The translations under genes were made by a program, and so were the position numbers. Source: Peptostreptococcaceae bacterium (GTDB taxonomy: Bacteria; Bacillota_A; Clostridia; Peptostreptococcales; Acidaminobacteraceae). From it: a DNA stretch of 8,185 nt. The notes beneath the pieces are model-generated. The model was given only the letters and a program-made list of their open reading frames with translations. It was not told the origin of the DNA and ran no database searches. The stretch is taken from the NCBI GenBank assembly GCA_013619035.1, contig JABXKX010000037.1, forward strand, positions 1-8,185, in the 5' to 3' direction. This document shows positions 2,629-8,185 of this stretch, piece after piece (position 1 is the first letter of the stretch; every line of letters starts with the position of its first letter).

Positions 2629-3508
2629 ATGTTGTCAACATTTTAATTTGAGAATATATAAAGCATAACAATCCTGCCCATATAATTAAAAACGGTATCA
2701 ATTCTGCCATACTAAATGGTTCTTTAAAAACAAAAATACCTAAACATAATCCTATTGTTGGGGCAATATATTGCAAAAAACCAACCACTTTTAATGGCAG
2801 TCTTTTTGTACCTTCAGCATACAATAATAGTGGTACAGCCGTAACAATACCACTAAGTGCTATCAAGATCCAAAATGACGGTTCTAAGTTACCTACAATA
2901 CCTTGACCAGATACTTCTGAAAATATCAAATAAATGCTGGCAGGTATCCCTACAATCAAAGTTTCAAATCCCAGTCCCATTAATGAAGATAGATGTGACT
3001 TCTTCTTAAGCAATCCATAAATCGCAAATGAGACGGCCAGTATAAGTGCTAATATAGGCACTTTACCATAAAATATAACTTTTACCATCACACCAGTTGC
3101 AGCTAAGCCGATACCTATTTTTTGTAGTCCATCAAGCTGTTCTCTATAAAACAAACTCCCCAGTAACGTTAGAACCAACGGATTCATGTAATAACCTAAA
3201 CTGGTTTCAATAACATAACCATTATTAACACCCCAAATATATGTCAACCAATTGATTGAAATAAACAGAGCTGGCCCTAAAGTTAACCACCAATTTTTCT
3301 TATCCTTTAAGAGATTGATGAATATTTTTATGTTCTTCTGTTGTATCATTATTAGTGTCACAAAAATTAGCGACCAAACCACTCGATGCACAAATATCTG
3401 ATAAGGATTAAGTGCACTTACAAGCTTCCAATACAGTGGTAATAGTCCCCAAAGTACAAAAGCTACCCCCCCTGATGTTAATCCTTTTATATAATTTTTT
3501 TTGTCCAT
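2627..3508 (-). CDS. rarD: RarD-type EamA-family permease
   Basis: This 293-residue, roughly ten-TM protein belongs to the drug/metabolite transporter superfamily (EamA). The N-terminus has the RarD signature: a WGLLPLYWK motif at about 20-28, then a helix ending in HRVVWS at about 41-46. Both are typical of RarD and distinguish it from other EamA proteins. Length matches the family (about 290-300). The role is inner-membrane transport. The name comes from chloramphenicol sensitivity in E. coli relatives, and the natural substrate is not established. The start is set by GGAGG 4 bases before the ATG. The gene follows the selenoprotein gene on the same strand after 76 bases, but a terminator lies between. 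A TATGAT at 3529-3534 could serve as a -10 box, though no good -35 accompanies it. Confidence 0.9.
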   Translation of the reverse strand: MDKKNYIKGLTSGGVAFVLWGLLPLYWKLVSALNPYQIFVHRVVWSLIFVTLIMIQQKNIKIFINLLKDKKNWWLTLGPALFISINWLTYIWGVNNGYVIETSLGYYMNPLVLTLLGSLFYREQLDGLQKIGIGLAATGVMVKVIFYGKVPILALILAVSFAIYGLLKKKSHLSSLMGLGFETLIVGIPASIYLIFSEVSGQGIVGNLEPSFWILIALSGIVTAVPLLLYAEGTKRLPLKVVGFLQYIAPTIGLCLGIFVFKEPFSMAELIPFLIIWAGLLCFIYSQIKMLTT

Positions 3509-3558
3509 AGGACCTCCAGCCTTATGGTATCATATCTCTTGAAAAAGACATAGAAAAA

Positions 3559-3576
3559 AGCAACTCTAAAGTTGCT
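3559..3576 (-). terminator. Rho-independent terminator of the selenoprotein gene
   Basis: A 7-bp perfect stem (AGCAACT / AGTTGCT) with a 4-base loop begins 8 bases after the selenoprotein stop codon. On the minus strand it runs straight into TTTTTT. The stem core is the same GCAACT/AGTTGC as the terminator at 2266-2288. It marks the end of the Sec-containing frame and separates it from rarD. Confidence 0.8.
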
Positions 3577-3584
3577 CACATTGA

Positions 3585-3815
3585 TTAACCGTTTTTAGCA
3601 GCTAATAATTTTTCTTTATTTAAACCAACAACTGCTTCGCCATCAATTAAGAATGATGGAACACCCATAAGTTTATTTTTCATCATTAATTTTCTTGCGT
3701 CCATATCTTCTGATACGTTGTGCTCTGTGTATTCAATATCGTTTGCTTTAAGGAACTCCTTAGCAGGTACACAATGAGGTCACGTTGATGTTGTAAACAT
3801 AATAATCTCTTTCAT
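3585..3815 (-). CDS. Glutaredoxin-like selenoprotein with a Sec-Pro-His-Cys active site
   Basis: Reading through one in-frame TGA (3780-3782) gives 76 residues: MKEIIMFTTST, Sec12, Pro-His-Cys15, then about 61 more. It matches short glutaredoxin/YruB-like proteins throughout: first beta-strand KEIIMFTTST, redox motif UPHC replacing CPxC, helix VPAKEFLKAN, strand IEYTEHNVS, the cis-Pro motif MGVPSF (Pro53), and the Gly motif GEAVVGLNKEKL (Gly64). Length is typical for the family. Sec replaces the N-terminal, nucleophilic Cys, the position where selenium most increases reactivity. The likely role is cytosolic thiol-disulfide or peroxide-linked redox chemistry; the partner is unknown. AGGAGG at 3821-3826 stands 5 bases before the ATG. 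Promoter and terminator flank the full frame, so the part after the TGA belongs to the gene. SelB is encoded in the same window. Frame and family are seen directly; Sec insertion is inferred. Confidence 0.9.
3744..3765 (-). promoter_or_regulatory. Bacterial SECIS-like hairpin in the selenoprotein coding sequence
   Basis: On the minus strand, starting 15 bases after the UGA, a stem-loop can be drawn. It has outer stem TGC/GCA (3 bp), a 2-base AA bulge on the 3' side, inner stem TAAGG/CCTTA (5 bp) and apical loop AGTT. The loop starts 23 bases after the UGA and has G as its second base. Known bacterial SECIS elements are short hairpins directly downstream of UGA, with a G in the first two loop positions and a loop roughly 16-37 bases away, so this fits. 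The SelB C-terminal winged helices would bind it. Confidence 0.75.
3780..3782 (-). other. In-frame UGA selenocysteine codon
   Basis: This TGA, codon 12, falls exactly where the first Cys of a CxxC redox motif is expected, and is followed by Pro-His-Cys. Clear glutaredoxin homology continues in the same frame on both sides, with no other in-frame stop. Confidence 0.88.
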
Positions 3816-3843
3816 AAAATCCTCCTATTTGTTTGTTAGTTCA

Positions 3844-3871
3844 ATTATAACACTCTTTGGATTTAATTCAA
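3844..3871 (-). promoter_or_regulatory. Extended -10 sigma-A promoter for the selenoprotein gene
   Basis: On the minus strand TTGAAT (3866-3871) lies 16 bases from a perfect TATAAT (3844-3849). The -10 box is preceded by TGT, forming an extended TGnTATAAT. Transcription would begin near 3837, leaving a leader of about 20 bases with the AGGAGG site. Confidence 0.65.
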
Positions 3872-3895
3872 TTTATTGAGTATTACGAAATTTAA

Positions 3896-3924
3896 TGTTA
3901 TATATAGAAAAACTATATATAACA
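3896..3924. repeat. Perfect 12-bp inverted repeat between divergent genes, possible operator
   Basis: TGTTATATATAG and its exact complement CTATATATAACA flank a 5-base A tract. The repeat lies 25 bases upstream of the selenoprotein -35 box and about 90 bases before the lipoprotein start at 4012. Its arms are A/T-only apart from two G/C pairs per arm and no T-run follows on the plus strand, so it does not look like a terminator. It may bind a dimeric regulator acting on one or both divergent genes. Confidence 0.5.
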
Positions 3925-4011
3925 GAAATTTTATTATTCCTAACTTTTTGCAACATCTGCATATTTTGTACCGAATGATGGTATTATGGCATTATACAAG
4001 GAGGTACTATT

Positions 4012-4878
4012 ATGAAAAAACTTATTTTAAGCATATTATTACTTTCACTTTTGGGCTGTAATGATGATGTCATTAATAACACAGATACCAATAAATCTCT
4101 TGATACTGTAGAAGTTGAAGAGACTGTTATAGAGACTTTTGAAGAAACATCCGAAGAAAATGTCGCGATGAAACCAATGACGCTTGAGGTTGGTAAATCA
4201 ACCGTCTTATACGCTGCAGCTGACGGACTAGATATCACAGCTGATTTATATCTCATCGACGAGACTTCCCCACTATTTATTCTCTTTCATAAAGCGAGTT
4301 GGAGTCGCGGTGAATACAAAGACACTGCTCTGAAGCTAAATAAAATGGGTTATAATGCTATGGCTGTTGATCAACGATCAGGTATGGCTTGTAATGGTAT
4401 TGTAAACGAAACAGCTAAACGTGCAACTGAAAAGGGCTTTGCAACCAATTATTCTGATGCTTCTAAGGATGTCAAAGCTTCAATTCAATATGCAATTGAT
4501 CACTTCGATACTGATATCTATGTTTTAGGCAGTTCCTATTCTGCATCTTTGGTTTTAGTTCTATCCCAAAAATACGCAGAAAATGTAAAAGGCATTTTTG
4601 CTTTTTCTCCAGGTGAGTATTTTTCATATGCAGGAAGATCCATTGCAGAAAACACAGAAAAATTAACGATACCTACTTTTATCACCTCTGGAAGTTATGA
4701 AACAGATGATTGGCAACGTATTTTTGACAGTGTTGGTTCAGATTATAAATTCGCATTTTATCCTGAAGAATTCGGTAGACATGGATCAGAATCCTTATGG
4801 GAGAGTACAAAAGAAAATACAGAGTTCTGGATGGCCATAGAATACTTCTTAGAACAAATCGAAGAGGATGCTAATTAG
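4012..4878 (+). CDS. Lipoprotein with alpha/beta-hydrolase fold
   Basis: This 288-residue protein starts with a lipoprotein signal peptide. MKKLILSILLLSLLGC has a lipobox LLGC, so Cys16 would be lipidated and the protein anchored outside the membrane. Residues 17-55 are an acidic, Thr/Glu-rich linker. The hydrolase domain spans about 58-282. It contains a strand and turn (FILFHKASWSRGEY), a VDQRSG segment, the nucleophile elbow LGSSYS with candidate Ser175, Asp232/Asp233 after the SGSYE strand, and candidate catalytic His257 in EFGRHGSES. The order Ser-Asp-His is as expected for the fold and closest in style to dienelactone-hydrolase-like esterases or peptidases. The elbow has Ser where the last Gly of GxSxG is usual. 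Substrate is unknown. AGGAGG lies 7 bases before the ATG; no clear promoter was found. It is divergent from the selenoprotein and converges on the GerMN gene. Confidence 0.85.
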   Translation: MKKLILSILLLSLLGCNDDVINNTDTNKSLDTVEVEETVIETFEETSEENVAMKPMTLEVGKSTVLYAAADGLDITADLYLIDETSPLFILFHKASWSRGEYKDTALKLNKMGYNAMAVDQRSGMACNGIVNETAKRATEKGFATNYSDASKDVKASIQYAIDHFDTDIYVLGSSYSASLVLVLSQKYAENVKGIFAFSPGEYFSYAGRSIAENTEKLTIPTFITSGSYETDDWQRIFDSVGSDYKFAFYPEEFGRHGSESLWESTKENTEFWMAIEYFLEQIEEDAN

Positions 4879-7966: not shown

Positions 7967-8185
7967 CTATCTTAACATTCGCTCGTCACCAACACGTTTT
8001 GTAATACCTTTTGTATCAAAATACTCCATAATCGGAACAATATATTTCCTAGATGTATCTAATAAATCACGACACTCAGCTAAACTTAACTTACCGTTCT
8101 CCTCAAAAGCAGCCTTTAAGAGCTCTAAAGCCTTATCATATACTTCTTTTGTTAAATAAATTGCATCAGAAATTCTTACAAATTT
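7967..8185 (-). CDS. selB: C-terminal end of selenocysteine-specific elongation factor SelB
   Basis: The last 72 codons of a gene enter from the right edge and end at TAG (7967-7969). The residues include KLSLAECRDLLDTSRKYIVP, then IMEYFDTKGITKRVGDERMLR, a helix-turn-wing typical of the final winged-helix domain of SelB. The LLDTSRKY and EYFD..GITKRVGDER segments are characteristic of this family. SelB is a GTPase that brings selenocysteinyl-tRNA to the ribosome; its C-terminal winged helices bind the SECIS hairpin just after a UGA. The GTPase domains lie outside the window. Its presence implies that selA, selD and tRNA-Sec exist elsewhere, and supports reading the TGA at 3780-3782 as selenocysteine. 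The opposite-strand frame over this region is a shadow. Confidence 0.9.
   Translation of the reverse strand, partial: KFVRISDAIYLTKEVYDKALELLKAAFEENGKLSLAECRDLLDTSRKYIVPIMEYFDTKGITKRVGDERMLR

Follow-up and report, generated by a model that had tools for sequence, protein, structure and literature searches.

An open frame of 77 codons on the minus strand of an 8,185-nucleotide contig (hereafter the window) from a Peptostreptococcaceae bacterium ends in TAA and contains a sole in-frame TGA, at codon 12, which raises the question of whether this codon stops translation or is decoded as selenocysteine (Sec, U). The preliminary description placed the TGA exactly at the first redox-Cys position of a glutaredoxin, with family-like sequence on either side; the coordinates and the position of the TGA proved exact, and with C put at the TGA the product matches the Pfam Glutaredoxin family (PF00462, 5.7e-14, 52.5 bits versus a cut-off of 22.9). 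Taken alone, a one-TGA open frame is not remarkable here, since the whole window holds four ATG-to-TAA/TAG frames that span 60 codons or more and contain a single TGA each; the candidate frame rises above chance because homology flanks the TGA on both sides and because the TGA is kept in relatives. The ribosome binding site, promoter and terminator that had been described are all present, as an AGGAGG, a promoter-like site and a terminator-like hairpin (Table 1). Within positions 3400-4050, promoter-like sites number 6, versus 3.1 expected in shuffles, and terminator-like sites 1, versus 0.1 expected.

Table 1. Features of the putative selenoprotein locus and of the selB end in the window
Feature	Position	Strand	Remarks
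Putative Sec-containing glutaredoxin-like redoxin gene	3585..3815	-	76 aa, if UGA is read as Sec
In-frame TGA, codon 12	3780..3782	-	opens the UPHC redox motif
AGGAGG ribosome binding site	3821..3826	-	ATG 5 nt downstream; read from sequence
Sigma-70-like promoter site, TTGAAT-16-TATAAT	3844..3871	-	TG before -10; consensus match only
Intrinsic-terminator-like hairpin with T run	3558..3577	-	signal scan
Bacterial SECIS-like hairpin core	3749..3762	-	nt 18-31 after TGA
selB C-terminal end (Sec-specific elongation factor), winged-helix domain	7967..8185	-	runs off the window

A search for redoxin homologues among 5.8 billion proteins gave 18 matches: seven were CPHC proteins of 112-120 residues, one (P0009, 76% identical) has C at the redox position, seven (P0002-P0008) have W at position 12 and three (P0010-P0012) start after the TGA site. 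Four genome relatives of the gene (L001, L002, L003 and L004; 97, 92, 87 and 82% identical, respectively), one of them from Acidaminobacter sp. JC074 and the other three from metagenome-assembled genomes, all have TGA as codon 12. In a sample of 393 genomes from the order to which one of the closest genomes (G002) belongs, 175 have matches to the family profile, and at least 47 matches, in at least 38 genomes, contain one TGA. As had been proposed, U12 falls on the redox Cys when the homologues are aligned: U opens the (U/C)xxC motif in all 48 TGA homologues (47 among the matches listed, plus the window), and all 37 stop-free homologues examined have Cys at the U-aligned position, these controls having been chosen by us among the stop-free matches listed and being mostly the better-scoring ones. 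Such comparison shows the gene and the position of U in it. Relatives of the redoxin gene were absent from the viral_contigs scan, and searches of phage and plasmid proteins returned 5 and 9 records, respectively, with 33-47% identity among the matches listed. The best match in the plasmid collection, from Acetoanaerobium noterae, is a Cys homologue (CSYC) that was considered as evidence on annotation and set aside, because a record of 2.6 Mb with just 4 annotated features is uninformative in this respect.

The alternative that survives best, itself very improbable, is that UGA is a true stop or that translation starts downstream of it, a fragment of 61 residues being the protein and the upstream codons being untranslated or a leader. 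This would agree with P0010, the nr entry of the nearest relative, which is named 'glutaredoxin family protein', is 61 aa long and begins at codon 16 with GTG, and with P0011 and P0012, which likewise begin past the TGA site; however, codon 16 is GTA, GTG, GTT, GTA and GTT in the window and L001-L004, respectively, so that this GTG start is present in just one of five loci and is not conserved. Such a fragment would also be devoid of the first strand (model residues 4-8) and of both redox residues, whereas at the protein level codons 1-11 are conserved across all five loci, and in the window and L001 AGGAGG stands directly before the upstream ATG.

Less probable still is that UGA means tryptophan or another standard residue in this organism, as the W at position 12 in seven of the 18 database matches might suggest. 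Two of these proteins, P0004 and P0008, are letter for letter the products of L003 and L004 except for the W at the TGA of the DNA, so in those two the W is an artefact of the translation table. Moreover, a mechanical count finds one or two long ATG frames closed by TGA at every one of the four relative loci. The eight other frames of the window use TGG 25 times with no internal TGA, although no frame among them ends in TGA, and the 37 stop-free homologues examined never have Trp at the redox position. A pseudogene or a sequencing error at codon 12 is just as improbable and found no support, as the identical TGA in four other genomes makes a base-calling error very unlikely and TGA occupies this motif position in at least 47 matches from the order, where the amino acids to either side are conserved.

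The published model of the bacterial SECIS (bSECIS) hairpin, as set out in the relevant passages of PMC13188914, has a loop of 3-9 nt with G within the first two loop positions and a stem of 4-16 bp, lies 16-37 nt from the UGA and has an MFE of -7.5 or below. The gene in the window agrees with this model, energy limit included: the apical loop (nt 23-26) is AGUU, carries G at its second position and lies 22 nt past the TGA, and the MFE is -9.0 kcal/mol. By itself this hairpin is unexceptional (z -0.78 against dinucleotide shuffles, p ~0.1 against synonymous shuffles), and since it is weak singly the SECIS case rests on the family. Our own scan based on the bSECIS model, which took the best of several sub-windows per gene for Sec and Cys genes alike, detected a model hairpin in 46 of the 48 Sec genes (matches listed plus the window), with 2 of the 48 devoid of it, versus 17 of the 37 Cys genes; with an MFE of -7.5 or below, the counts were 37/48 (same set) and 5/37 (Fisher 3e-9). 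The uninterrupted stem of the Sec genes averages 6.2 pairs; synonymous shuffling gives 2.9, the highest value of 500 rounds being 3.5, and 28 of the 48 genes (matches listed plus the window) reach p <= 0.05 for the stem singly. In the Cys genes the mean stem is 3.3 versus 2.7 in synonymous shuffles, a value that 0 of 500 shuffles reached, so that a slight hairpin signal remains in these genes as well. Pairing positions covary: nt 18-31 are occupied by T-A, C-G, A-T and G-T in 14 genes of one loop-length group, and in 24 genes of another nt 17-33 are mainly C-G and T-A and nt 18-32 are G-C and A-T. Codons 18-22 are identical among all five close homologues. Comparison shows the hairpin as a property of the family.

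The decoding machinery is partly visible in the window, the last 219 bases of which encode the end of SelB (PF09107, 1.6e-21, 76 bits versus a cut-off of 23.2); TIGR00475 matches there with 1.3e-11 over its last 67 model positions only, and hence under its full-length cut-off. A tRNA scan of the window found zero tRNA, and an Rfam scan gave three matches under the gathering score, none of them relevant. Genes for tRNA-Sec, selA and selD were found over cut-off in all four closest genomes (G001-G004), while the same cut-offs were passed among 14 control genomes by tRNA-Sec in 5, by selA in 1 and by selD in 2. Across the order, selA (E <= 1e-60) is present in 245 of the 393 genomes, and in 38 of the 38 genomes with a TGA homologue among the matches listed (hypergeometric 5e-9, with kinship uncorrected; the overlap of the 38 genomes with the selA list was checked by eye). 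The preliminary description made its reading depend on tRNA-Sec, selA and selD in the genome; this part stood for the four closest genomes, with the selB end in the window itself, while the source genome is covered via its relatives only, from which its own tRNA-Sec, selA and selD are deduced. The read-through of UGA that had been claimed is supported, at the level of sequence, by the conservation of the TGA, by its motif position in all 48 genes (matches listed plus the window) and by this machinery in relatives. A separate observation concerns selD itself, the best match of which in each of the four closest genomes (L047-L050) is read through one TGA; Sec-containing SelD is known.

An AlphaFold2 model with C at the TGA has a pLDDT of 94.6, and its best match in the PDB is the dithiol glutaredoxin cGrx1 (7c10). 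This protein of Clostridium (Alkaliphilus) oremlandii (7c10, 7c12, 7c13) is the nearest solved one by both sequence and fold (TM 0.89, with 46% identity when aligned by structure; 34 identical residues among 69 aligned), and shares with the window protein its length class, fold, motif type and native Sec at the catalytic position. According to the sections of PMC7642778 that describe it, cGrx1 is a native selenoprotein with the motif U(or C)PXC, which is CPHC in the Cys form. Sec-glutaredoxins were listed as early as 2006 for Alkaliphilus metalliredigenes, Geobacter sulfurreducens and Moorella thermoacetica in the part of PMC1794560 concerned with them, where the likeness to the window protein is one of description and two of the three organisms are clostridial; they are also included in a current review, in the portion relevant here (PMC13188914), and the kind to which the window protein belongs is therefore already known. 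The earlier claim that Sec-containing glutaredoxin-like proteins occur in some clostridia is borne out by cGrx1 and by the 2006 list, as far as these two texts describe them (PMC7642778, PMC1794560).

Within this kind the window protein stands somewhat apart. Its best family match, TIGR02196 (GlrX_YruB), gives 63.9 bits over residues 4-70, under the cut-off of 88.55, and two further models are also below their cut-offs, Uxx-star NF041212 with 38.7 bits versus 66 and NF047338 with 19.8 versus 97. Judged by their names, the Uxx-star families (NF041212 and relatives) are glutaredoxin-like proteins with Sec; Uxx-star family 1 (NF041114) is given as UxxT in the corresponding passage of PMC13188914, whereas the window protein keeps Cys at that position. 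In a tree of 86 rows, built with the redox column masked on 80 columns, which are few and leave many forks unresolved, the window and L001-L004 form one clade of their own with a long branch (SH-aLRT 99), outside the well-supported cGrx1 group. All five members of this clade, as seen in DNA, carry Sec; the protein-database relative P0009 has Cys. Sec and Cys are exchanged on the tree by 17 changes, 4 of which are forced by branches whose support is 95 or higher. The gene in the window thus represents a divergent clade within a kind of selenoprotein that is already known, and there is about an even chance that this is a separate, unnamed clade of Sec-redoxins of Acidaminobacter-like clostridia, within a larger under-annotated UPHC set that includes a Sec-glutaredoxin with a zinc-ribbon-like tail. 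A search of the open-licence literature found no paper on an Acidaminobacter selenocysteine glutaredoxin.

We consider it highly probable, judging from these comparisons, that the locus is a genuine selenoprotein gene, with UGA decoded as Sec under the direction of a hairpin and a redoxin as the product. SelB and Sec-tRNA(Sec) would decode the UGA of codon 12, the hairpin with its loop 22 nt downstream directing the insertion, and the resulting protein would be a thioredoxin-fold redoxin of 76 residues whose active site reads Sec-Pro-His-Cys. If it acts as cGrx1 does, Sec12 may attack disulfides or the sulfenic or selenenic acids of partners, for example Sec-MsrA, after which Cys15 might resolve the selenenylsulfide. 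That Sec is actually inserted in the cell, which enzyme is the partner and where the electrons come from are what we infer from the comparisons.

The relevant passages on cGrx1 propose that it reduces MsrA, a selenoprotein as well, in the same organism (PMC7642778), and CoMsrA is reported, in the part of PMC4479559 that deals with its reductants, to be reduced by glutaredoxin but not thioredoxin. MsrA-family frames with TGA-encoded U in the motif GUFW occur in three of the four closest genomes (G001, G002 and G004), and in the remaining one (G003) none of the three MsrA rows has a TGA. Since cGrx1 is the nearest protein, MsrA reduction is on record and GUFW-type MsrA is found in three genomes, the function that we consider likeliest is a role like that of cGrx1, Sec-MsrA regeneration included, and we propose it tentatively, at somewhat less than even probability. 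The frames concerned are L135 (G004), L136 (G002) and L137 (G001), each with the in-frame TGA at GUFW; those of L136 and L137 start with a hydrophobic stretch and extend into a part that we take to be MsrB-like. The label 'glutaredoxin' needs care as far as the use of glutathione is concerned. Redoxins of the NrdH-like type are able to use thioredoxin reductase.

The neighbouring genes in the window and in L001-L004 suggest no functional partner. L001-L003 share their neighbourhood with the window, L004 does not (genes recognised by eye): in the first three, selB lies upstream, and response regulator, kinase and Germane-domain genes, identified by likeness to those of the window, are arranged as they are there. 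Elsewhere in the window, a Lys-/Asn-rich frame of 44 residues with zero NCBIfam match lies on the minus strand between the MMPL and RarD genes (2286-2420).

The expectation that standard gene calling would report only a fragment after the TGA came true for the nearest relative: the 61-aa nr entry P0010, called from GTG, equals the product of L001 after the TGA. None of the NCBIfam models was over cut-off for the window protein or for four homologues from the order that were tested, and these low scores, together with the P0010 fragment, suggest why annotation misses the gene. With TGA homologues in at least 38 of the 393 genomes, small Sec-dependent redoxins seem to be common in the order. Standard gene calling can lose or shorten them, so the selenium-dependent thiol redox capacity of anaerobes may be underestimated.

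A longer type was observed alongside: 19 of the 48 TGA sequences (matches listed plus the window) have 111-116 codons and a C-terminal CxxC...CxxC tail, zinc-ribbon-like, behind the glutaredoxin domain. It includes L051, L052, L053, L059, L065 and L083, and each of the closest genomes has a copy (L065 in G001, L083 in G002, L059 in G003 and L051 in G004). Zinc-ribbon Pfam models gave weak matches under cut-off for three tailed examples tested, and a zinc ribbon was not found among the open-licence literature matches listed.

Sec and Cys versions of the redoxin are closely related, and some Cys versions have leftover SECIS-like hairpins, which makes the family convenient for studying the exchange of Sec and Cys. 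In three Cys homologues (L098, L114 and L116) a SECIS-like hairpin still lies at the right distance, and these hairpins are candidates for remnants of Sec-to-Cys changes.
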